Of a stretch of DNA of 64,000 nt, positions 50,926 through 64,000 are shown in pieces (position 1 is the stretch's first letter; each line of letters opens with the position of its first letter). Below the pieces are notes generated by a model. The model saw nothing but the letters and a program-made list of their open reading frames with translations. It did not search any database and was not told where the DNA came from. The position numbers were made by a program, and so were the translations under genes. The stretch is from NCBI RefSeq assembly GCF_001695835.1, contig NZ_MBSO01000012.1, forward strand, positions 186,001 to 250,000, written 5' to 3'. This DNA comes from Ensifer sp. LC11 (GTDB lineage: Bacteria; Pseudomonadota; Alphaproteobacteria; Rhizobiales; Rhizobiaceae).

Positions 50926-51708
50926 CTAGCGACCCTTCCACACCGGGTCGCGCTTTTCCGCGAAGGCACGTGCGCCCTCCAGCTGGTCTTCGCTCGAATA
51001 GAGAATGTCGACGGTCTTGAACTGCCGTTGGGTGATCTTGTTCATGGTCGTCTGGAAGGCCTCGCCCTCGGCGGCGCGCACCACTTCCTTGATCGCGGCA
51101 TAGACCAGCGGCGGTCCGCTTTCGAGCAGGCGGGCGAGCTCCCAGGCCCGGTCCATCAGCTTGCTCGCCGGCAGGACCTCGTTGACGAAGCCCCAGCGAT
51201 GGGCCTCCGCCACGTCGAGCCAGCGGCCGGTCAACAGCATGTCCATGGCGATGTGATAGGGGATGCGCTTCGGCAGCTTGATCGAGGCGGCATCGGCGAC
51301 GGTGCCAGAGCGGATCTCCGGCAGCGCGAAGGTCGCGTGTTCGGCCGCCAGGATCAGGTCAGTCGAAAGCGCGATTTCGAGGCCGCCGCCGCAGCAGATG
51401 CCATTGACCGCCGCAATGATTGGCTTGTTGAGGTCGCGCAGCTCCTGCATGCCGCCGAAGCCGCCGACGCCATAGTCGCCATCGACCGCGTCGCCATCGG
51501 CGGCCGCCTTCAGGTCCCATCCCGGACAGAAGAATTTTTCACCGGCACCGGTGATGATCGCGACCCGCAGCGTGTCGTCGTCGCGAAAGTCGCGGAAGAT
51601 CTCGCCCATGACCCGGCTGGTTTTCAGGTCGATGGCGTTGGCCTTCGGCCGGTCGATCGTGACTTCGAGAATGCCGCCTTCGCGGCGCGTGAGGATCGGT
51701 CCGGTCAT
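50926..51708 (-). CDS. caiD: Crotonobetainyl-CoA hydratase (CaiD-like)
   Basis: Crotonase-fold protein of 260 aa, matching CaiD length. The oxyanion region FCPGWDLKAAADGDA and the ICCGGGLEIALSTDL segment are followed by ATFALPEIRSGTVAD and TGRWLDVAEAHRWGFVNEV, close to E. coli CaiD. Both catalytic-type glutamates appear present. It hydrates crotonobetainyl-CoA to carnitinyl-CoA. ATG 51708 overlaps the CoA-ligase gene end, with GGAGG upstream; a TTG at 51717 is less likely. It sits in the carnitine operon after the CoA ligase. Confidence 0.85.
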   Translation of the reverse strand: MTGPILTRREGGILEVTIDRPKANAIDLKTSRVMGEIFRDFRDDDTLRVAIITGAGEKFFCPGWDLKAAADGDAVDGDYGVGGFGGMQELRDLNKPIIAAVNGICCGGGLEIALSTDLILAAEHATFALPEIRSGTVADAASIKLPKRIPYHIAMDMLLTGRWLDVAEAHRWGFVNEVLPASKLMDRAWELARLLESGPPLVYAAIKEVVRAAEGEAFQTTMNKITQRQFKTVDILYSSEDQLEGARAFAEKRDPVWKGR

Positions 51709-51713
51709 CAGGG

Positions 51714-53771
51714 TCAATTCCTCCGGCGAATGAGGGCGTCAGCGGCAACGGCTCCCTGGCCATCGGGCAACACCATCAAAGGATTGATATCGAGTTCTTC
51801 GAGTTTCGAAGCGTTTGCAACGACATAGGATGCCGCTGCCGCGACAGCCTCGATCAATGCTGCGTCATCGGCGGCAGGCGCGCCGCGATAGCCGTCGAGC
51901 AGCTTGCGGATCTTCAAGCCGCCGATGGTCTCGCGGATCGCGTCCGGCGTCGTCGGCAGCGTCAGGATAGCGGAATCATCGAGCAGTTCCACCAGGATGC
52001 CGCCGGCACCGATCGTCAGCACCGGACCGGCCACGGGGTCGCGCATGGCGCCGATGATCAGCTCGGCGACGGGTTTTGCCACCATCTTCTCGACCAGAAA
52101 ACCCGAGGCGACCGCGGTCATGGCCTTCGCTGCGGCAAAGACCTCCTGGGTATTTGCGAGGTTGAGCTTCACCGCGCCCGCTTCAGTCTTGTGGGCAACG
52201 CCAAGACCCTTGAGCACGACCGGGAACCCGAGTGCCTCGGCGGCGGCTGCGGCCTCCTCGGCGGTCGCAGCGGTCCTGCCTTCAGGCACGTTGAGGCCGG
52301 CGGCGGCAAGCTCCATCTTCGCCTCGTGTTCGCTGAGCGTGATGGCTTCGCCGGTACCGGCGCCAAGGCCATCGAGCAGGCGGGGCGGGGCGGGCTTGGC
52401 CCAGGCAGCACCAATGCCGGCGGCCGTCTCGATCGCCGCCAATGCCTCTTCTATGCCGAAGAAGGGCACGACGCCGGCCTTCATCAGGAAGAGCGCGGTT
52501 GCCTCCGGCATGTTCTCGCCGAGGCTGGCAACGATGCCGGCGCGGGCGCCGGTCGCCCTCGCGGCGTCGATCACCGCGTGGCAGGTGGTTTCCCAGTCGG
52601 TGGCGTCGCAGCGGTCGAGCCGCGGGAAATCGAGCACGAGCAGATTGATCGCATAGCCGCCCTTCATCATGGCGGTAAAGGCGGTGGTCTGCTTCTCGCG
52701 GTTGCCCCAGACAAAGGTGTGGTAGTCGAGCGGGTTGGCGATCGTCACCATCTCGCCGAGCGCGTCCTTGAGCGGCTTCTTCTGTTCGTCGCGCAGCGCC
52801 CGGTAGTTCACCCGGTAACGTTCGCCGGCGTCAGCCATCAGCGAAGCTTCGCCGCCGGAGCAGCTCATCGACGAGATCTCGTTGCTGTCAAGCGGGCCTG
52901 CGACATGCAGGAGCTTCAGCGTTTCCAAGAGCGCCGGCAGCGTGTCGACGCGGCCGATGCCGAGGCGGGCAAGAAGGGCGGAGGAGACGCGGTCGTTGCC
53001 GGCAAGCGAGGCGGTGTGCGAAACGGTCGCAAGCTGCGCGGCTTCGGATTTTCCGACCTTGAGCGTCACGACAGGCTTGCCGAGTTCGCGGGCGCGGGTT
53101 GCCAGCCGCTCGAGCGCGGCAATGCTGTCGAAGCCTTCGATATGCAGGCCGACGGCGGTGACGCGTGGATCTTCGAGCACGGCGCAGGCGATGTCGGAAA
53201 GCCCCGTCTGCGCCTGGTTGCCGGCGGTCATGACATAGGCGAGCGGCAGGCCGCGCGTCTGCATCGAGATGTTGCAGGCGATGTTGGAGGATTGTGTCAG
53301 GACGGCGACGCCCTTTTCGACGCGTTGCATGCCGTGCTGGTCTGGCCAGAGCAGGGCACCGTCGAGCATATTGATGAAGCCGTAGCAGTTGGGCCCGACG
53401 ATCGGCATGTCGCCGGCGGCCGCAACCAGTGCCTCCTGCATGTCGTTGCCGTCGTCAAGCTCGCTTGCCGCCTCGCGGAAGCCCGAGGCATAGCAGACGG
53501 CGCCGCCGGCACCGCGGCTCGCGAGATCGCGGATGATGTCGATGGTCAGCTGTCGGTTGACGCCGACGAAGGAGGCATCCGGCGCCGCGGGCAGTTCCGC
53601 CACCGAGCGGTAACATTTGCGGCCAAGAATCTCGGCCTCGCGCGGGTGCACCGGCCAGATCTCGCCGGAAAACCCCATCTTGTCGCATTGTTCGATGACA
53701 CGCCGGGCTTCCTTGCCGCCGAAGACGGCGATGGTGCGCGGGCGGATCAGGCGGTCGAGGGAGCGGGTCAT
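51714..53771 (-). CDS. ADP-forming acyl-CoA synthetase (fused alpha-beta)
   Basis: Protein of 685 aa. An N-terminal CoA-binding domain (FGGKEARRVIEQ) leads to succinyl-CoA-ligase-like domains with the phosphohistidine H252 in SHTASLAGND, and a C-terminal ATP-grasp domain (LSEHEAKMELAAAGLNVPEG onward). Such enzymes make acyl-CoA from acid, CoA and ATP with ADP plus phosphate as products. Here it is likely to activate gamma-butyrobetaine, crotonobetaine or carnitine, replacing the AMP-forming CaiC of enterobacteria. ATG 53771 follows GGGAGG. Confidence 0.88.
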   Translation of the reverse strand: MTRSLDRLIRPRTIAVFGGKEARRVIEQCDKMGFSGEIWPVHPREAEILGRKCYRSVAELPAAPDASFVGVNRQLTIDIIRDLASRGAGGAVCYASGFREAASELDDGNDMQEALVAAAGDMPIVGPNCYGFINMLDGALLWPDQHGMQRVEKGVAVLTQSSNIACNISMQTRGLPLAYVMTAGNQAQTGLSDIACAVLEDPRVTAVGLHIEGFDSIAALERLATRARELGKPVVTLKVGKSEAAQLATVSHTASLAGNDRVSSALLARLGIGRVDTLPALLETLKLLHVAGPLDSNEISSMSCSGGEASLMADAGERYRVNYRALRDEQKKPLKDALGEMVTIANPLDYHTFVWGNREKQTTAFTAMMKGGYAINLLVLDFPRLDRCDATDWETTCHAVIDAARATGARAGIVASLGENMPEATALFLMKAGVVPFFGIEEALAAIETAAGIGAAWAKPAPPRLLDGLGAGTGEAITLSEHEAKMELAAAGLNVPEGRTAATAEEAAAAAEALGFPVVLKGLGVAHKTEAGAVKLNLANTQEVFAAAKAMTAVASGFLVEKMVAKPVAELIIGAMRDPVAGPVLTIGAGGILVELLDDSAILTLPTTPDAIRETIGGLKIRKLLDGYRGAPAADDAALIEAVAAAASYVVANASKLEELDINPLMVLPDGQGAVAADALIRRRN

Positions 53772-54080
53772 GCGGCGCCTCCCGCGACGGCGCGCGTCGA
53801 GGCTACGGGGGATACCCCCCTCTGCCCTGCCGGGCATCTCCCCCACAAGGGGGGAGATTGGATGGGGCGCAGTGGTCGCCAAGCATCGGCCGTCGAATGA
53901 CGTTGGGCCATCTGCGAGCGGAAGCGGCGCGTCGCGACAAGCCGATCTATGGGCCGATCAATGGAAAGCTGAATGGTCGGGAGGGGCAGGGCGGGTAATC
54001 CTGGCCGATCTCCCCCCTTGTGGGGGAGATGCCCGGCAGGGCAGAGGGGGGTAAGCACCGGAACTTCGACCTTCATCCCG
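53772..54080. other. Spacer made of an inverted-repeat element
   Basis: These 309 bp between the CoA ligase and acyl-CoA dehydrogenase genes hold no supported gene. Most of the space is a pair of 46-47 bp inverted repeats (53812-53858 and 54007-54053) with a 148 bp interior. Confidence 0.6.
53812..54053. repeat. Paired inverted repeat (about 242 bp element)
   Basis: Left arm 53812-53858 contains CCCCCCTCTGCCCTGCCGGG then CATCTCCCCCACAAGGGGGG; right arm 54007-54053 is its reverse complement almost without change. Each arm is itself a small hairpin (CTCCCCC-ACAA-GGGGGAG type). The interior has no reading frame of note. It resembles a rhizobial mosaic element or MITE inserted within the operon. 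Confidence 0.75.
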
Positions 54081-55241
54081 TCACGCTCCCAGCGGCCTGA
54101 GCAGGTCGCGGCTGATGATGTGGCGCTGGATTTCCGACGTGCCGTCCCAGATGCGTTCGACGCGGGCGTCGCGCCAGAAGCGGGCGAGCGGCAGGTCGTC
54201 CATCAGGCCCATGCCGCCGAAGATCTGGATTGCCTCGTCGGTGACGCGGGCGAGCATTTCGGTGGCAAAGACCTTGGCCGAGGCGATTTCGCGGTTTGAC
54301 GGCAGGCCGTTGTCGAGCCGCCAAGCGGCTGACAGCGTCAGGAGGTCGGCGGCGTCGATCTCGGTGATCATGTCGGCGAGCTTGAAGGAAACGCCCTGGT
54401 TGGCGCCGATCGGCTTGCCGAACTGTTTGCGGTCGGCCGCATAGTTCAGCGCGTAGTCGAAGGCGCGGCGGGCCCGGCCGACGGAGGTGGCGGCCACAGT
54501 CAGCCTTGTGGCGAACAGCCAGTCATTGGCGACATCAAAACCCTTGTGCACTTCGCCGAGGATTTGGGACGAAGGCAGGCGGCAGTCGTCGAAGGTCAGG
54601 ATGCAGTTGTTGTAGCCGCGGTGCGAAACGGAGTTGTAGCCCTTGCGGATCTCGAAGCCGGGCGTGCCGCGGTCGACGAGGAAACAGGTGATCTTCTTCT
54701 TCGGCCCGCGCGGCGTGTCCTCTTCACCGGTTGCGATGAAGACGATGACGAAATCGGCGATGTCGGCATGGCTGATGAAATGCTTGGTGCCGTTGACGAT
54801 CCAGTCGTCGCCGTCCTTGCGGGCAAAACACTTCATGCCGCGCACGTCGGAGCCGGCGTCCGGCTCGGTCATGGCGAGGGCGTCGAACTTGTCGCCCTTG
54901 ACCGCGGGCAGCAGGTACTTCTCGCGCTGCTCGGCATTGCAGGCCATCAGGATGCCCGAGGGGCGGCCGAAGAAGACCGTCAGGCCCATCGAGCCGCGGC
55001 CAAGCTCGCGCTCGACCAGCGTGAACGAGGTGTGGTCGAGGCCGGCGCCGCCGACTTCTTCCGGAAAATTGCAGCCGAAGAAACCGATCTCCTTGCACTT
55101 GCGGGCGATTTCCTGGCCAAGCTCGCGCGGCACCACGCCGGTGCGCTCGACCTCGTCCTCATGCGGATAGATTTCCGTTTCGACGAAGCTCCTGACCGTA
55201 TCGACGATCATCTGCTGTTCTTCGGTCAGTGCGAAATTCAT
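54081..55241 (-). CDS. Acyl-CoA dehydrogenase (CaiA-like; crotonobetainyl/gamma-butyrobetainyl-CoA)
   Basis: FAD enzyme of 386 aa: LTEEQQMIVDTVRSFVETEI at the start, MTEPDAGSDVRG and IVNGTKHFISHADIADF in the middle, IFGGMGLMDDLPLARFWRD and GTSEIQRHIISRDLLRPLG at the end. It resembles CaiA and glutaryl-type dehydrogenases. In this operon it probably oxidises gamma-butyrobetainyl-CoA to crotonobetainyl-CoA. ATG 55241 follows GAGGGG. A strong hairpin (55326-55351) lies between it and the dehydrogenase-thioesterase gene. Confidence 0.9.
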   Translation of the reverse strand: MNFALTEEQQMIVDTVRSFVETEIYPHEDEVERTGVVPRELGQEIARKCKEIGFFGCNFPEEVGGAGLDHTSFTLVERELGRGSMGLTVFFGRPSGILMACNAEQREKYLLPAVKGDKFDALAMTEPDAGSDVRGMKCFARKDGDDWIVNGTKHFISHADIADFVIVFIATGEEDTPRGPKKKITCFLVDRGTPGFEIRKGYNSVSHRGYNNCILTFDDCRLPSSQILGEVHKGFDVANDWLFATRLTVAATSVGRARRAFDYALNYAADRKQFGKPIGANQGVSFKLADMITEIDAADLLTLSAAWRLDNGLPSNREIASAKVFATEMLARVTDEAIQIFGGMGLMDDLPLARFWRDARVERIWDGTSEIQRHIISRDLLRPLGA

Positions 55242-55325
55242 TGTGTTGTTCCCCTCGTTTTCGCGCCGCTGACGTCGGTTCCGCAAACGAAGGCCGCCTC
55301 CTCAAGCGTCCCTCGGCTGCGGTTT

Positions 55326-55351
55326 GCAGCTTCGCCGGTGGGCGAAGCTGC
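55326..55351. terminator. Perfect 11 bp hairpin in operon spacer
   Basis: GCAGCTTCGCC (55326-55336) pairs with GGCGAAGCTGC (55341-55351) around GGTG. It lies between the lcdH stop (55377) and the acyl-CoA dehydrogenase start (55241). No U-tract follows on the minus strand, so it may attenuate or stabilise rather than terminate. Confidence 0.45.
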
Positions 55352-55376
55352 CTATCGATGGCCTGCCGCTTTGCGG

Positions 55377-56870
55377 TCAGGCGCGCTTCTGGCCGACGAA
55401 GCGTCCGACGCCTTCCGGCGTCGGCAGCTGCGCATGCGCTTCGGCAATGGCGGCAAGCTTACTCAGCACGTGTGCCGGGGCGGCGACGGCCTTGCCGGCC
55501 TTGCTGTCCACGTGCAGTGCCATCTGTTCGGCGGTCGCCACCGCCTCGTTGGTCGCGGCGTTGTAGATCGTCGAGAAGATGTGCAGGCGCTTCTCGTCGG
55601 AGGAGAGCACCTGGCAGGTCGAATAGAGCGCGTCGCCGAGCTTGGCCTCGCCGAGGTTCCGGATGTGGGTCTCGACGGTATAGTAGCTGTGGCCGTCGCG
55701 CACATAATCGAGATCGACGCCGATCAGGCGAAGCAAGCCGTCGGTGGTGTCGCCGAAGACCTGGAGATAGCGGTGCTCGGTCATGTGGCCGTTGTAGTCG
55801 ACCCAGGCAGCACTCACCTTGGTGTCGACAATGCGCAGCGGCTTTACGTCGCCGAGGTCGGCCTCCGGCTTCTTGGCGTTGGCCCAGAGCTTGGCTTCGA
55901 AATCGGCTAGCAGCTTGCCGGCACCCCAGCCTTCGCCGCCATTGCCTGATTTCAGCGCATGCATGATGCCGACGAGGTTTTCGTCGCGGATGCGTTCGAG
56001 TTCGCGGATCGAGCGGCCGGCGGCCTGGGCGTCCGACTGGGCGCCGATCTTTTCGACGAGCGCATCGTCGAGATCAACGACATCGGTGAACTTCGTCCAG
56101 GGCCATTTGAGGCAGGGGCCGAACTGGGCGAGGAAGTGGCGCATGCCGGCTTCACCGCCGGCGATGCGATAGGTCTCGAACAGGCCCATCTGCGCCCAGC
56201 GCATGCCGAAGGAATAGCGCATGACATTGTCGAGTGTCTCGGTATCGCAGATGTCGTCCTGGATCAGCCAGAGCGCCTCGCGCCACAGCGCTTCGAGCAG
56301 GCGGTCGCCGACGAAAGCCTCGATCTCCTTGGCGATGACGACGCCCTTCATGCCGATCTGCTCGACGCCCAACATGGCGCGCTCGATCGTCGCCTTCGTC
56401 GTCTTCTTGCCGCCGACCAGTTCGACGAGCGGCAGCAGGTAGACGGGGTTGTAAGGATGCGCCACGAACATGCGCTCGGGGTGGTGCATTTCGGACTGCA
56501 GATCGGAGGGCAGCAGGCCCGAAGTGGACGAGCCGATCAGCGCATCCGGCCGCGAAGCCGCATCGATCTTGGTGATGACGCCGCGCTTCAGCTCCAGCCG
56601 CTCCGGCACGCTTTCCTGAATCCAATCAGCGTCTTTGACCGCTTCCTCGATGCTCTTGCAGAAGGTGAGTTTTCCCTTCGGCGGCAGCGGCGCCATCGTC
56701 AGCATCGCATAGGCGCGCTCGGCATTGGCCATGACCTCGCCGATGATGCGCTCGGCTTCCGGATGCGGGTCGAAGATCTTTACGTCGATGCCGGCGAGCG
56801 CGAAGCGCGCCACCCAGGCGCCGCCAATGACGCCGCCGCCGACACAGGCTGCTTTGGTGATAAAGCTCAT
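55377..56870 (-). CDS. lcdH: L-carnitine 3-dehydrogenase fused to betainyl-CoA thioesterase
   Basis: Protein of 497 aa, two domains. The N-terminal 3-hydroxyacyl-CoA-dehydrogenase-like half has the Rossmann CVGGGVIGGAW motif and a catalytic-type H138 in AHPYNPVYLLPLVE; it oxidises L-carnitine to 3-dehydrocarnitine with NAD. The C-terminal hot-dog thioesterase (about 350-470) carries VDYNGHMTEHRYLQVFGD. In S. meliloti the fused protein combines carnitine dehydrogenase with cleavage of betainyl-CoA to glycine betaine and CoA. It lies immediately downstream of the BKACE gene. Confidence 0.93.
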   Translation of the reverse strand: MSFITKAACVGGGVIGGAWVARFALAGIDVKIFDPHPEAERIIGEVMANAERAYAMLTMAPLPPKGKLTFCKSIEEAVKDADWIQESVPERLELKRGVITKIDAASRPDALIGSSTSGLLPSDLQSEMHHPERMFVAHPYNPVYLLPLVELVGGKKTTKATIERAMLGVEQIGMKGVVIAKEIEAFVGDRLLEALWREALWLIQDDICDTETLDNVMRYSFGMRWAQMGLFETYRIAGGEAGMRHFLAQFGPCLKWPWTKFTDVVDLDDALVEKIGAQSDAQAAGRSIRELERIRDENLVGIMHALKSGNGGEGWGAGKLLADFEAKLWANAKKPEADLGDVKPLRIVDTKVSAAWVDYNGHMTEHRYLQVFGDTTDGLLRLIGVDLDYVRDGHSYYTVETHIRNLGEAKLGDALYSTCQVLSSDEKRLHIFSTIYNAATNEAVATAEQMALHVDSKAGKAVAAPAHVLSKLAAIAEAHAQLPTPEGVGRFVGQKRA

Positions 56871-56886
56871 GGTGTCCTGTCCTTGA

Positions 56887-57789
56887 TCAGCGTTTCGTCA
56901 GCTTCAGTTTCTCGCGGACCTCTTTCGGCCCGATGATCTTGGCGCCCATGCCCTCGATGACACCGACAGCCTTTTCGACGAGCTGGCCGTTGGTGGCGAG
57001 CTGGCCCTTGCCGATGTAGAGGTTGTCTTCGAGGCCGACGCGGACGTTGCCGCCGGCAAGGATCGCCGCTGCCGGATAGGCAAGCGCGTTGCGGCCGATG
57101 GAGAAGGCCGAGAAGGTCCAGTTGGCGGGAACGTTGTTGACCATCGCCATGAAGGTGTTGAGGTCGTCGGGCGCGCCCCATGGGATTCCCATGCAGAGCT
57201 GGATCAGTACCGGATCCTCGATCAGGCCTTCCTCGACCAGTTGCTTGGCAAACCAGAGGTGGCCGGTATCGAAGGCTTCGATCTCGGGGCGCACGCCGAG
57301 TGCTGTCATCTGGCGGGCCATCTCGCGCAGCATCGACGGCGTGTTGGTCATGACATAGTCGCCGAGCGAGAAGTTCATGGTGCCGCAGTCGAGCGTGCAG
57401 ATCTCCGGCAGGCACTCGGCCACATGCGCGACGCGCTCGGTGGCGCCGGCCATGTCGGTGCCTTTCTCGCTGAGCGGGAGCGGACTTTCGACATTGCCGA
57501 AGATAAGGTCGCCGCCCATGCCGGCGGTCAGGTTCAGCACCATGTCGACATCGGCGGAGCGAATGCGGTCCGTGACTTCCCGGTAAAGATCGAGCCTGCG
57601 CGAAGGTGCGCCGGTCTCCGGATCGCGGACGTGGCAGTGGACCACAGCGGCACCAGCCTTGGCCGCCTCGACCGCCGCTGCGGCGATCTGTTTCGGGGTG
57701 ATCGGAACATGGCTGGACTTCGAAACGGTGTCTCCCGAGCCGGTGACGGCACAGGTGATGAATACCTCGCGGTTCATGCTGAGCGGCAT
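56887..57789 (-). CDS. BKACE-family enzyme, 3-dehydrocarnitine cleavage
   Basis: Beta-keto acid cleavage enzyme of 300 aa. The metal-binding HCHVRDPETG motif has H51 and H53; the TIM-barrel pattern continues with VLNLTAGMGGD, GTMNFSLGDYVMTN and IEAFDTGHLW. BKACE proteins condense a beta-keto acid with acetyl-CoA, giving acetoacetate and a new acyl-CoA. Beside a carnitine dehydrogenase the substrate is 3-dehydrocarnitine, giving betainyl-CoA for the fused thioesterase. ATG 57789 follows GGGAG. It is the first gene of the operon, divergent from cdhR. Confidence 0.93.
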   Translation of the reverse strand: MPLSMNREVFITCAVTGSGDTVSKSSHVPITPKQIAAAAVEAAKAGAAVVHCHVRDPETGAPSRRLDLYREVTDRIRSADVDMVLNLTAGMGGDLIFGNVESPLPLSEKGTDMAGATERVAHVAECLPEICTLDCGTMNFSLGDYVMTNTPSMLREMARQMTALGVRPEIEAFDTGHLWFAKQLVEEGLIEDPVLIQLCMGIPWGAPDDLNTFMAMVNNVPANWTFSAFSIGRNALAYPAAAILAGGNVRVGLEDNLYIGKGQLATNGQLVEKAVGVIEGMGAKIIGPKEVREKLKLTKR

Positions 57790-57844
57790 TGCTGTCTCCC
57801 TTTTATTGACCTCATTACGAGCCAAGAAAGACCGCGCTGCTTTT

Positions 57845-59207: not shown

Positions 59208-60386
59208 TCAGACCGGCGCGCTCCTCTTCATCATCGAAATCATCAGCTCGCCGATCTCGCCGGCGAAAGCGCCACGCGGCCAGACGAGCGTGAGGGATTG
59301 CCGGTAGGCGGGGCCAAGCCGGATCATCGCCGGGGGCCGATGCATCCTTGCGAGCGAGGATTCCGGTAGTACCGAGAGATAGCCGTGCTCGGCGACGAGG
59401 TTGATGATTACAGGAATGGAATCGACTTCGACGAGGGCGACGCGCCGCCGCTCTGCCTCATCCAGCGTGTCATCGAGGAAGCGGGCGGTCTCGCGGCGCA
59501 ATCCGCTCCTGACGCTTGGTACCGCGATCGGGCAGGCGGCGAGCAGCCTTGGCAGATCACCTGCGAAAGCGGAAAGGGCGGACGCGGGGCCTGCCAGCGC
59601 CAGCGGCATCTGCGACACCAGCCGGCCGTCGCAATCCAAGGGGATCTCGGCGACATCGAGCAGGGCGGCGTCGAACCGCCGGCTTCTAAGGCCCGCCAAA
59701 AGTTCATCCGCCGTGGTGCTGGATGTGTAGAGCGGCTGCCGCGGGCGGGTGCGTTGCCAGTTCGCCGTCAGCGCCGCCAGCATGCGGGCGATCTCGCTTT
59801 CGGGTCCAAGCGGCATGACGGCGCCGAGCCGCCAGGTGGCGGCGTCGCGGCGGAAGCGATCGGCCGAGGCGTGTGTCAGCCGCGCCCAGATATCGAGCAG
59901 GGCCTCGACCAACGGAATGATCCGCTCAGCGGTTGCCGTGGTGAGAACGCCGCCATGAGAGCGCTCGAACAGGCGGCTGCCGAGATGGCGTTCCAGGTCG
60001 GCCATTTGCCGTGTCAGCTGCGGCTGGCCGAGACCGAGCGCTTTTGCCGTGGCGCGAATGCTGCCGGAGCGGGCGATGCGCACGAAGCGATCGAGCGCGA
60101 CGAGACCGATGGGCGGAGCGGGATCGGTCGCCTCCCTGCCCACAGCTGTGAGGATGGCGGTGATCGTTGCCGTTGCCTCTCGAACGTCGGTCGCACGCGC
60201 GCGGGCTTCGAGTGTCAGCACCAGCATGGTCTCTTCCCGTCGGAAGAGTGACATGGAAATCGCCTGTTCGAAGCGTTTGACAGCGGCGCTGACGCTCGAA
60301 GGCGCGCGCCCGCAAAGGGCTGCGGCGCGGCGAATGCCGCCTTCGCCAAGCACTGCGTCCACGAGCACGATCGTCGCCAAATCCAT
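59208..60386 (-). CDS. LysR-type regulator with duplicated N-terminal HTH
   Basis: Protein of 392 aa, about 80 longer than usual LysR proteins. Residues 1-65 form one LysR-like HTH (IRRAAALCGRAPSSVSAAVK, RFEQAISMSLFRREE), and residues about 93-155 form a second (FVRIARSGSIRATAKALGLG, PQLTRQMADLERHLGSRLFE), followed by the normal effector domain ending LARMHRPPAMIRLGP. It diverges from the MIO-less lyase gene across 209 bp and is its likely regulator. The first HTH may have arisen by duplication. Confidence 0.88.
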   Translation of the reverse strand: MDLATIVLVDAVLGEGGIRRAAALCGRAPSSVSAAVKRFEQAISMSLFRREETMLVLTLEARARATDVREATATITAILTAVGREATDPAPPIGLVALDRFVRIARSGSIRATAKALGLGQPQLTRQMADLERHLGSRLFERSHGGVLTTATAERIIPLVEALLDIWARLTHASADRFRRDAATWRLGAVMPLGPESEIARMLAALTANWQRTRPRQPLYTSSTTADELLAGLRSRRFDAALLDVAEIPLDCDGRLVSQMPLALAGPASALSAFAGDLPRLLAACPIAVPSVRSGLRRETARFLDDTLDEAERRRVALVEVDSIPVIINLVAEHGYLSVLPESSLARMHRPPAMIRLGPAYRQSLTLVWPRGAFAGEIGELMISMMKRSAPV

Positions 60387-60465
60387 TCCATGATCCCCGA
60401 AGGCCGTACACGCATTTTCTGCGTTCTGAATTCGGCATCACCCGTTCCAGATTTGGGATATAGCA

Positions 60466-60497
60466 TGGATGTGCGATAAGCGCATAGCATGCATCCA
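60466..60497. promoter_or_regulatory. Dyad between double-HTH lysR and lyase gene
   Basis: TGGATG (60466-60471) and CATCCA (60492-60497) form the arms of an imperfect 32 bp dyad centred at 60481.5, with GC/GC and TA/TA pairs also conserved inside. It lies in the divergent spacer and is a candidate binding site for the regulator at 59208. Confidence 0.4.
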
Positions 60498-60595
60498 GCA
60501 CTGCAGCGTTTTCGAGCGGCGGTTGCGAGACATCAGAGCATCCGCGCACCGCCTCGAAACCGAAGCGAGCCCGGCGCGGAAAGGTATCTATCGGC

Positions 60596-62134
60596 ATGTT
60601 GCATCAGGTCAAAACCATCGTTCTCTGCGGGAAACCTCTGGACTTCGCGACACTCGAGGATATCGGGGCGGGAAGGGCACGGCCGGTGGCCGATGATGGC
60701 GGCATGGAGCGGGTGGCCGCCGCCCACAAGGTGGTTGCCGAGCGTGTGGCGATGGGGTTGCCCGTCTATGGCTCCAACACCGGCGTCGGCTCGATGAAGG
60801 ATCGGCTCTGGACGGCCGACGACCTTGCCGAATTCAACAACGCTTTGGTCAGGGCTCATCACTTCGGTACCGGCGAGTTCTTCGCGCCGGCGATCGTGCG
60901 CATGGCGATCGCCATCCGTGTCAACACCGCCATGCGCGGCCATACCGGCTGCAGCCCGGATCTGATCCGGGCGTTTTTGTCCCTGCTTGCGGCCGACATC
61001 ATTCCGGCGGTGCGCCGGCACGGTTCGATGGGCTGTGCCGATATCGGCCTGATGGGGCAGATCGCCTCGGTGCTGACCGGCGTCGGCGAGGCCTATTATC
61101 AGGGGCGTCTCGTTTCGGCGGAAACGGCGCTCAGCGAGGCCGGCCTGAAACCCTTCGTCATGCAGCCGCGCGACGCGCTGGCGGCCCTCAGCGTCAACGC
61201 TATCGCTTTCGCCGCAGCCGCCAATGTTCTGCGTGAGGCGGCATCCGCGATCCGCGTGCTGCTCGTCACCGGCGTCATGTCTTCCCTGGCGCTTGGCGCT
61301 TCGGCCGATCCGTGGCGGGTGGCGGCAACGCTCTCGACGCGCGGCGAGGCGCTGGTCGGTTCCTGGCTCTATGGCCAGTCCGGCGTCGCCGACTGGCCGG
61401 TGCCGACGGCAATCCATGATCCCTTGAGCCTGCGCATGACCGCCCAGGTCTTCGGCGCCGTCGTCGACACACTGATGGTCGCTGCCGGGCGGCTGGTAGA
61501 GGCGACCTATCTTTCCGATGACAATCCGGTCGTGATCGGCGGACAGGTGCATTCCTCCGGTGCATCGCTGCCGCTGACCACGACGCTCTATATCGAGGCG
61601 GCGCAGATCGCCTTTTCCCATGCGGCGCGCAATGTGCTGAACCGCTGCATCCTCCTGTCGAACGGAGGGCGCCGCAATCTCTCGGTCAATCTCGTGGCGC
61701 CGGGGGAAGTGGCGACCGGGCTCGGCCCGCTGATGAAACTCGCGGTCGAGCTCTACATGCGCGTTCAGTCGCTCGCTGTGCCACTCTCGGCCCAGTCGAT
61801 CGTGGTCGCCGGTGGCCTCGAAGAGGAAGCGACCTTCCTGCCGCTGATCGTCGAGCGCATGGAAACGCAGGTGCGGGATCTGCGCCAGCTTGCCGCGATC
61901 GAGGCGATGCTGTCGTCGCAGGCGATCGATCTCGTCGGCGACCAGCCGCAGGGCATCGTCAGGCGCGCCTACGACCAGACCCGCTCGGTCAGCCCTGTTT
62001 ATCTCAAGGACCGGCCGCTCTCGAAGGAGATCGAGGCGCTGCAGGATGCCTTCACTTGCCACGACCTGTTGCGATCCTTCGTCGCGACGGCGCCGATGCC
62101 GGAGTTCGACGACTTCTTTGCACTCGGCAAGTGA
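60596..62134 (+). CDS. Aromatic amino acid ammonia-lyase-fold enzyme lacking the MIO triad
   Basis: Protein of 512 aa with the histidine/phenylalanine ammonia-lyase fold. The Tyr-loop VYGSNTGVG (Y58), the FNNALVRAHHFGTG segment and N201 are family features. Where canonical enzymes have GSxGASGD and form the MIO cofactor from Ala-Ser-Gly, this protein has GSMGCAD with C147-A148-D149, so MIO cannot form in the usual way. The QDPYSLR tyrosine is also replaced (HDPLSLR, L277). It therefore probably removes a better leaving group than ammonia, for instance trimethylamine from a histidine betaine. A hydantoinase and a carbamoylase follow. The exact reaction is unknown. Confidence 0.88.
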   Translation: MLHQVKTIVLCGKPLDFATLEDIGAGRARPVADDGGMERVAAAHKVVAERVAMGLPVYGSNTGVGSMKDRLWTADDLAEFNNALVRAHHFGTGEFFAPAIVRMAIAIRVNTAMRGHTGCSPDLIRAFLSLLAADIIPAVRRHGSMGCADIGLMGQIASVLTGVGEAYYQGRLVSAETALSEAGLKPFVMQPRDALAALSVNAIAFAAAANVLREAASAIRVLLVTGVMSSLALGASADPWRVAATLSTRGEALVGSWLYGQSGVADWPVPTAIHDPLSLRMTAQVFGAVVDTLMVAAGRLVEATYLSDDNPVVIGGQVHSSGASLPLTTTLYIEAAQIAFSHAARNVLNRCILLSNGGRRNLSVNLVAPGEVATGLGPLMKLAVELYMRVQSLAVPLSAQSIVVAGGLEEEATFLPLIVERMETQVRDLRQLAAIEAMLSSQAIDLVGDQPQGIVRRAYDQTRSVSPVYLKDRPLSKEIEALQDAFTCHDLLRSFVATAPMPEFDDFFALGK

Positions 62135-62152
62135 CACAACGAGGAGAGCAGC

Positions 62153-63529
62153 ATGTCCGATTTCGATCTCGTTCTGAAAGGCACCGTTGTTCTCCCGCAC
62201 CGGATCGTCGAGGGCGGCCATGTGGCGGTTCGCGACGGCAAGGTGGTGCATGTCGGGCAGGGCGCTGCACCGGCTGCGCGTGAACGGCATGATCTCGGCA
62301 ATGCGCTGATCCTGCCCGGCGCTGTCGATGCGCAGGTGCATTCGCTGTCGCAGAAAAACCAGGAGGATTTCATCTGGTCGACGCGCTCGGCGGCCGCCGG
62401 CGGCGTCACCACCATCGTCGACATGCCCTATGACGAGGGCAATCTCGTCTGCTCGGCCGAGGCGCTGCGCCGCAAGATCGACCATGCGGGGCCGCAGGCG
62501 CGCGTCGATTTCGCGCTCTACGGCACCGTCGATCCCGAGGAGGGGCCGGCGCGCATCGGCGAGATGGTCGAGGCCGGTGTCGCCGCCTTCAAGTTCTCCA
62601 CCTTCGGCACCGATCCGAAGCGCTTTCCCCGCATTCCGGCGGCCCTTCTCGAAGACTGTTTCCGCGCGATCGCACTGAGCGGGCTTACAGCCGGCGTCCA
62701 CAATGAGGACGATGAGGCGGTGCGCGCCGCGATCGACAAGGTGAAGGCCGCAGGGATCACCGACTACCGCGCCCACGGGCTGTCGCGCCCGCCGCTGACG
62801 GAGCTGCTGGCCACCAACCAGATCTACGAGACGGGCGCTGCCACAGGCTGCCCGGCACATGTGGTGCACTGCTCGCTCGGGCGCGGTTACGAGATTGCTG
62901 CCGCCTACCGCGCCCAAGGGCACGCCGCGACCATCGAGTGCTGCATCCACTATCTGACGCTCGACGAGGAAAACGACGTCCGCCGGCTCGGCGGCAAGGC
63001 GAAGATCAACCCGCCGATCCGGCCGCGCGCCGAGGTGGAAAAGCTCTGGCGCCATGTGGCCGACGGCACGGTAACGATGGTTTCGACCGATCATGTGAGC
63101 TGGTCGGAGGACCGCAAGACCAATCCTGATATGCTGGCCAATGCCTCGGGCGTGCCGGGGCTCGAAGTCATGGTGCCGCTCTTCGTCAAGGGCGCGCTGG
63201 AGCGCGGCATCCCATTGACGCGAGCTGCCGAACTGATGACGCTGAACCCGGCCCGGCATTTCCGCCTCGACCACCAGAAGGGCGCGCTGGAAGTCGGCAA
63301 GGATGCCGACATCATCGTCATGACGCCGGAGCCCTATGTTTATGATGCGGCCGCCAGCGGTCACAACGTTGTCGGCTGGTCGCCCTATAACGGTATCAGG
63401 CTGCCCTGGCGGGTGTCCGCTACCTATTTGCGTGGCAGGCTTGCCTTTGATGGTCGCACGGTGCTGGCTGAACCGGGTGTCGGCCAGTTCGTCCGACCGC
63501 TTCCGACCCTGGCGCTGCGGGAGGCGTGA
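62153..63529 (+). CDS. Hydantoinase/dihydropyrimidinase-like amidohydrolase
   Basis: Cyclic amidohydrolase of 458 aa. The carboxylated lysine is K147 (AAFKFSTFG); metal-ligand histidines H183 (GVHNED) and H239 (HVVHCS) and the aspartate D313 (STDHVSW) are in place. The first motif, usually DxHxH, reads D59-A-Q-V-H63, with glutamine in place of the first histidine, so one metal site may be altered. It hydrolyses a hydantoin-like ring. It begins 18 bp after the lyase stop and overlaps the next gene, so the three form an operon. Confidence 0.9.
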   Translation: MSDFDLVLKGTVVLPHRIVEGGHVAVRDGKVVHVGQGAAPAARERHDLGNALILPGAVDAQVHSLSQKNQEDFIWSTRSAAAGGVTTIVDMPYDEGNLVCSAEALRRKIDHAGPQARVDFALYGTVDPEEGPARIGEMVEAGVAAFKFSTFGTDPKRFPRIPAALLEDCFRAIALSGLTAGVHNEDDEAVRAAIDKVKAAGITDYRAHGLSRPPLTELLATNQIYETGAATGCPAHVVHCSLGRGYEIAAAYRAQGHAATIECCIHYLTLDEENDVRRLGGKAKINPPIRPRAEVEKLWRHVADGTVTMVSTDHVSWSEDRKTNPDMLANASGVPGLEVMVPLFVKGALERGIPLTRAAELMTLNPARHFRLDHQKGALEVGKDADIIVMTPEPYVYDAAASGHNVVGWSPYNGIRLPWRVSATYLRGRLAFDGRTVLAEPGVGQFVRPLPTLALREA

Positions 63530-64000
63530 TGAGCAAGACCGCACACAAGGTTCCGGCCAATCTGCCCGTGAACGCCAGCCGCATCGCCGGCATCGTCAAC
63601 GGTTTGGGGGGCATTACCGAGCCCGACCGGCCTTACACGCGGCGCGCTTTCACGCCGCTCTTCCTCGAAGGGCGCGCCTTTCTCGACCGGCGCTTTCGTG
63701 CCGCAGGGCTTGAGACCCGGATCGACGCCGCCGGCAATCTGATCGGCCGTCGTAAGGGACGGAAATCGGCGCTCGGCACGATCATGCTCGGTTCCCACTC
63801 CGACACGGTGCCCGATGGCGGCCGTTTCGATGGTATCGCCGGCGTAGCGGCGGCGCTCGAAGTGGCGCGGGCGCTTTCCGACAACGGCATCGAGCTCGAC
63901 CATGATCTGGAAATCGTCGATTTCCTCGCCGAGGAAGTGTCGATCTTCGGCGTTTCCTGCGTCGGCAGCCGTGGCATGGCGGGCGTGCTGCCGGATGGCT
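63529..64000 (+). CDS. M20 family N-carbamoyl amino acid/allantoate hydrolase (partial)
   Basis: First 157 residues of a zinc hydrolase; the gene continues past the window. Metal motifs H90-x-D92 (GSHSDTVPDGGRFDG), D101 and the paired E135-E136 (DFLAEEVSIFGVS) are visible. Relatives remove the carbamoyl group from N-carbamoyl amino acids or allantoate. Its ATG overlaps the hydantoinase stop by one base (TGATG). With the lyase and hydantoinase it gives the series expected for breakdown of a histidine-type compound to an amino acid. Confidence 0.88.
   Translation, partial: MSKTAHKVPANLPVNASRIAGIVNGLGGITEPDRPYTRRAFTPLFLEGRAFLDRRFRAAGLETRIDAAGNLIGRRKGRKSALGTIMLGSHSDTVPDGGRFDGIAGVAAALEVARALSDNGIELDHDLEIVDFLAEEVSIFGVSCVGSRGMAGVLPDG

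Follow-up and report, generated by a model that had tools for sequence, protein, structure and literature searches.

The window, the whole 64,000-nucleotide stretch of Ensifer sp. LC11 DNA analysed here, ends within a five-gene operon composed of a predicted ergothionase, ErtD, ErtE, a thiohydantoin desulfurase and a thiourocanate hydratase. The lyase heads the operon and is followed by ErtD after a gap of eighteen bases. The operon extends beyond the window, and its distal part lies in the stretch of the same contig past the window end (locus L004; window coordinate = L004 coordinate + 57999). The features of the locus are as follows.

60596–62134, + strand: predicted ergothionase (ergothioneine trimethylamine-lyase) with the PF00221 fold, MIO triad lost (C147-A148 then D149), L277, K381 and E409.
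62153–63529, + strand: ErtD, hydantoin-5-propionate amidohydrolase (ring opening); NF058538, 800.7 bits, cut-off 600.
63526–64000, + strand, cut by the window end and running to 64809: ErtE, N-carbamyl-L-glutamate amidohydrolase; NF058540, 603.8 bits at full length, cut-off 520.
64811–65908, past the window: thiohydantoin desulfurase; NF058529, 605.3 bits, cut-off 440.
66624–68282, past the window: thiourocanate hydratase; NF058530, 1056.1 bits, cut-off 930.
59208–60386, − strand: divergent LysR-type regulator with two HTH_1 matches, the likely regulator of the operon.
60387–60595, no strand: divergent intergenic region with conserved blocks GATTTGGGATATA and, further on, CGCATAGCATGC; candidate operator/promoter.

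The intergenic blocks are taken from eight aligned loci, our own and seven relatives. Between the desulfurase and hydratase genes lies a 109-residue TfoX_N-like ORF (window 65922–66251, L004:7923–8252) that scores 29.9 bits against a cut-off of 30.1. By eye, such an ORF is the longest in this gap in about 32 of 55 relatives; a motif pattern written for it was too strict and matched 4 of the 55. The operon is adjoined by a carnitine-type catabolic cluster (window 50926–57825), which contains a carnitine 3-dehydrogenase (NF005716, 911.4 bits, cut-off 592), a BKACE protein (by Pfam) and a crotonobetainyl-CoA hydratase-like protein that falls below its cut-off.

The lyase ORF is intact from ATG to stop, encodes 512 residues and is assigned to PF00221 with 262.2 bits (cut-off 27.3). 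No ergothionase model matched it in an NCBIfam search (E up to 0.001). The nearest named locus in a contig scan for lyase relatives is that of Ensifer sp. Root278, at 98% identity. Ungapped comparison with ten relatives gives 464, 242 and 1815 substitutions at codon positions 1, 2 and 3, respectively, a pattern that identifies the + strand as coding. The same pattern speaks against a 1003-residue antisense ORF (60533–63544) as a true gene; it is most likely a shadow.

The residues at the former MIO site were compared with those of the HutH copy in the same genome (locus L001, GSVGASGDL). HutH GSVG-A-S-G-D aligns with GSMG-C-A---D of the lyase, leaving the MIO triad one residue short; Cys147 and Ala148 are its remnant and Asp149 corresponds to the Asp after the triad (HutH Asp145). 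At 26% identity, the two proteins share the fold and the equivalents of HutH Tyr53, His83, Arg283 and Glu414 (Tyr58, His88, Arg280 and Glu409 in the lyase), but the lyase lacks Ala-Ser-Gly, Tyr280 and Asn195. The last two mark columns that we take to be catalytic, and they hold Leu277 and Ser199 in the lyase. Lys381 occupies the position of a Val in HutH. The CAD sequence is present in 55 of 55 readable relatives out of 56, and Leu277 in all 56. The unreadable copy (L058) matches in two frames and seems to be frameshifted or misassembled.

These comparisons bear out the original prediction that the protein is a MIO-less homologue of histidine ammonia-lyase (HAL). The two motifs on which it relied, GSMGCAD and a HDPLSLR-type motif with Leu for Tyr, are present as written. 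It had placed C147-A148-D149 where the triad would be: the triad is indeed lost, but only Cys147 and Ala148 derive from it. It had also listed Tyr58, Asn201 and Arg280 as remaining, which is correct for Tyr58 and Arg280; Asn201, however, aligns with HutH Thr197 and lies off the catalytic Asn column. An Ala-Ser-Gly triad elsewhere in the active site had been named as evidence against the prediction, and the protein contains no such triad. More broadly, Ala/Thr/Cys-Ser-Gly was sought across the whole lyase without a match, which rules out a MIO enzyme with a displaced triad; the sole X-Ser-Gly is Ser-Ser-Gly at residues 320–322, far from the MIO column.

The closest match to the lyase among PDB sequences is the Treponema denticola ergothionase (6s7j, phmmer E 1.6e-54), followed by a HAL (7tqr, 4.6e-40). 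The T. denticola enzyme, reportedly the subject of a study by Maurer in 2019, is 28–31% identical to the lyase, depending on the alignment, a value little higher than the 26% shared with HutH. Its residues, as read off the phmmer/PDB alignment (6s7j/6s7q), include a shortened MIO site followed by Asp, the equivalent of Leu277 and a Ser-x-Asn-Ala motif (Ser194 and Asn196). The PF00221 fold, Lys383, Glu411 and Tyr53 (Lys381, Glu409 and Tyr58 here) and the equivalent of Asp308 are also shared. The two enzymes differ at the former MIO site, which is Glu-Gly in T. denticola and Cys-Ala here, and at His274, where the T. denticola enzyme has Gln. The choice of ergothionase as the comparison in the original prediction was apt.

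In a tree of 28 rows (seven of 35 were omitted, being either surplus HutH or closely related to rows retained), the Rhizobiaceae and Ochrobactrum operon lyases, a Burkholderiaceae-type row and the T. denticola ergothionase lie on one side of a branch with support 98/96. The same branch is recovered at 95/92 without the Burkholderiaceae-type row; the T. denticola and Burkholderiaceae-type rows have long branches, and the grouping should be read with caution. An AlphaFold model of the lyase (mean pLDDT 79.6, pTM 0.86) says little about the active site, since residues 59–70, 144–147 and 401–411, among others, fall below 50. Foldseek with this model ranks 6s7j first (5.2e-23) and a HAL next (8.5e-23), with TM 0.84/0.87 for 6s7j_C; the nearly equal E values indicate that the fold alone is undecisive. 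Within 20 aligned rows, all 8 of the ergothionase type share Lys68, Asn81, Ile150, Ser199, Asp308, Ser321 and Gly377, and none of the 12 other PF00221 rows has any of these residues. Lys381, Arg108 and Pro416 occur in every one of the 13 Lys-type MIO-less rows and in none of the 7 rows of HutH and HutH2 type. The set from which these columns were chosen contains the window lyase, so they are a description and not an independent test.

The operon partners point to the function of the lyase. ErtD, ErtE, the desulfurase and the hydratase all exceed their cut-offs, which leaves only the first step, ergothionase, to be filled, and this is the reaction to be expected of a HAL homologue that lacks MIO. 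On this sequence evidence, the window lyase is very probably that enzyme, acting first in ergothioneine catabolism. Ergothioneine is an antioxidant of mushrooms. In its known breakdown to glutamate, the four steps that follow ergothionase match the operon enzymes, and the end products are glutamate, sulfide, CO2 and ammonia. Beliaeva, Leisinger and Seebeck reportedly described a five-step bacterial pathway of this kind in 2021, with the same number of enzymes and the same activities as the operon. The original prediction had recognised ring-opening and carbamoyl-cleaving neighbours, in agreement with ErtD and ErtE. Its proposal that the lyase is the strongest candidate in the window for an undescribed reaction is not supported, since the neighbours are the four later enzymes of ergothioneine catabolism and the expected reaction is the known conversion of ergothioneine to thiourocanate and trimethylamine. 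A search for egtD in the genome of the strain found none (0 of 1); the strain may therefore acquire ready-made ergothioneine instead of producing it through EgtD.

The same partners bear on other substrates. Ergothioneine sulfonate, the oxidised form, is quite improbable as the main substrate of the lyase; its breakdown would release trimethylamine and later sulfite. A catabolic pathway for this compound has reportedly been found in a related alphaproteobacterium, Agrobacterium radiobacter, and the divergence of the lyase from the T. denticola ergothionase is consistent with another substrate. The sulfonate pathway would free sulfite and is not known to require a desulfurase. The operon encodes a thiohydantoin desulfurase well above its cut-off, relatives of which occur in all 56 loci, and a hydratase that passes the thiourocanate cut-off. 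On chemical grounds, the desulfurase may count against the sulfonate because it would be needed only if the sulfur stays a thione. S-methyl-ergothioneine, selenoneine or a similar analogue is an even less probable substrate. Separate NCBIfam models for the S-methyl hydratase and desulfurase also match (740.7 and 287.1 bits), but both scores lie below their cut-offs (880 and 450), unlike those for the thiourocanate and thiohydantoin models. Sequence does not discriminate against selenoneine.

Least probable is a MIO-free hercynine or histidine lyase. The shared fold, the retention of Tyr58, His88 and Arg280 and the presence of other MIO-less PF00221 proteins next to hut genes are compatible with such an activity. 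However, a canonical HutH is encoded at another place in the genome, the operon carries thio-pathway enzymes rather than HutU or HutI, and the lyase scores 202.7 bits with the curated hutH model, below the cut-off of 539.15. The sulfonate, the S-methyl analogue and hercynine were rejected as first-choice substrates on these grounds.

With ergothioneine as the preferred substrate, the alignment and general knowledge of the fold suggest a mechanism of MIO-independent trimethylamine loss as likely. Ergothioneine would bind in the active site of the HAL-fold protein, and the conserved Tyr58, the most likely base, would take the β proton. Trimethylamine would then depart from the α carbon to give thiourocanate. 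Lys381 and Glu409 may form an electrostatic pair that probably positions or charge-balances the substrate and transition state, and Asp308 and Ser199 probably help to select the thioimidazole. The hydratase, desulfurase, ErtD and ErtE would convert thiourocanate to the pathway end products. The MIO electrophile, which in HAL activates the amine, would not be needed because trimethylammonium is already a good leaving group, and the triad would have decayed to Cys147-Ala148. This fits the suggestion in the original prediction of another leaving group: trimethylamine, as expected for an ergothionase, is the likely reason for MIO loss.

A contig scan with the lyase as query yielded 56 distinct loci, all from Rhizobiaceae or Rhizobiales and all close kin (69–98% identity). 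By tblastn, every one of the 56 has the lyase, ErtD, ErtE, the desulfurase and the divergent upstream LysR gene, and 55 also have the hydratase; the exception (L029) lacks it because its contig ends at the desulfurase. A BKACE/AraC pair of the carnitine-type cluster lies nearby in 55 of the 56, the exception (L060) beginning shortly before the operon. At greater distance, three genomes have 54% identical lyases, with the operon present in the one examined (L085). All five genes also occur in two plasmid loci, one from Rhizobium sp. SL42 (lyase 51% identical) and one from Ochrobactrum quorumnocens (56%); the ~10-kb flanks on each side of these loci gave no match to the carnitine cluster. In Rhizobium sp. 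SL42 (L128), a LysR gene is located between the lyase and ErtD.

Among 398 Pseudomonadota genomes, the hydratase exceeds its cut-off in six and the lyase exceeds 650 bits in five, with the next best match at 299.3 bits. The five lyase genomes all fall within the six hydratase genomes (Fisher p 7.4e-11, a value that ignores relatedness, the five being of one family). In the sixth genome (G289, locus L083), an ABC transporter (SBP_bac_3) precedes the hydratase, the desulfurase and ErtD, and the adjoining sequence gave no match to ergothionase or ErtE. At E up to 1e-60, the lyase profile finds a single protein in this genome, with 224.5 bits and on another contig. Possession of the hydratase thus does not strictly imply this type of lyase, and the G289 cluster perhaps serves to import thiourocanate made by others.

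In a family that we take to be Burkholderiaceae (that of genome G255), three of 200 genomes have a lyase match at E up to 1e-85. The two of these that were retrieved (L126 and L127) encode the hydratase, desulfurase, ErtD and ErtE near the lyase (tblastn), and L126, the one run against NCBIfam, passes all four partner-enzyme cut-offs. These lyases belong to the same clade as the window lyase and are likewise adjoined by the four partner genes. They differ in their identity to it (about 30%), in having Glu-Ala at the MIO site, in a longer loop near window-lyase residue 315 and in gene arrangement, the lyase and hydratase being on the opposite strand to ErtD and ErtE. This arrangement and the LysR insertion in Rhizobium sp. 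SL42 indicate that a single operon is not universal. The N-termini in L126 and L127 look hydrophobic and signal-like by eye, which might mean export. The Burkholderiaceae-type lyases are possibly like the Burkholderia sp. HME13 ergothionase. Profile score does not separate them (293.7–295.6 bits) from other MIO-less lyases (up to 299.3).

A sister clade of MIO-less lyases has Ala-Ala-Asp at the former MIO site and retains Lys381, with Asp308 and Ser199 absent. Two of its members (L119 and L120) adjoin hut genes and betaine-type transporters. In L119 the neighbours are hutU, hutI and hutG, all over their cut-offs, a HutH2-type lyase, an OpuAC binding protein and a BCCT-type transporter below its cut-offs. 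In L120 they are a HutC repressor (278.4 bits, cut-off 220) and an OpuAC binding protein whose similarity to OsmF falls below the cut-off. The L119 and L120 lyases are possibly hercynine trimethylamine-lyases; related lyases in L116 and L121 lie among different genes, which makes this lead mixed. A literature search returned nothing on a hercynine lyase yielding trimethylamine and urocanate, and one on hutH2/hutX gave nothing relevant among the matches listed.

We put forward only tentatively, and as a rather doubtful proposal, that the MIO-less PF00221 branch constitutes a wider family made up of trimethylamine (betaine) lyases. The window clade would be specific for ergothioneine and set apart by an invariant Cys in place of the Glu found in other ergothionases at the former MIO site. 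The sister clade would have an undescribed activity, that of a hercynine trimethylamine-lyase whose urocanate enters histidine breakdown. The Ensifer genome also contains a second MIO-less HAL homologue (contig C10, L002:1366–2952) with GSVGYLTHAAAIG and QDPLSLR but neither Lys381 nor Asp308, which is presumably the hutH2 of rhizobia. Its cluster (L006 neighbourhood) includes an amidohydrolase with a HutF N-terminal domain, an OpuAC binding protein, a permease, an ATPase and HutD.

Ergothionase and its reaction are already known, and the window lyase adds a likely member. A likely function and a full operon can now be assigned to a gene whose relatives carry ammonia-lyase names; the Rhizobium sp. 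SL42 relative, for example, is annotated as an ‘aromatic amino acid ammonia-lyase’. In a 2026 article (PMC13405746), ergothionase is described as restricted to few bacteria, from a BLAST search that returned only HAL, PAL and TAL names, and its authors admit that divergent homologues may be missed. Our single query located ergothionase-operon loci in 56 Rhizobiaceae or Rhizobiales records, a hidden set of likely ergothionases. The NCBIfam models name the later pathway enzymes, and the residue set described above may serve as a trial rule for finding the remaining ergothionases.
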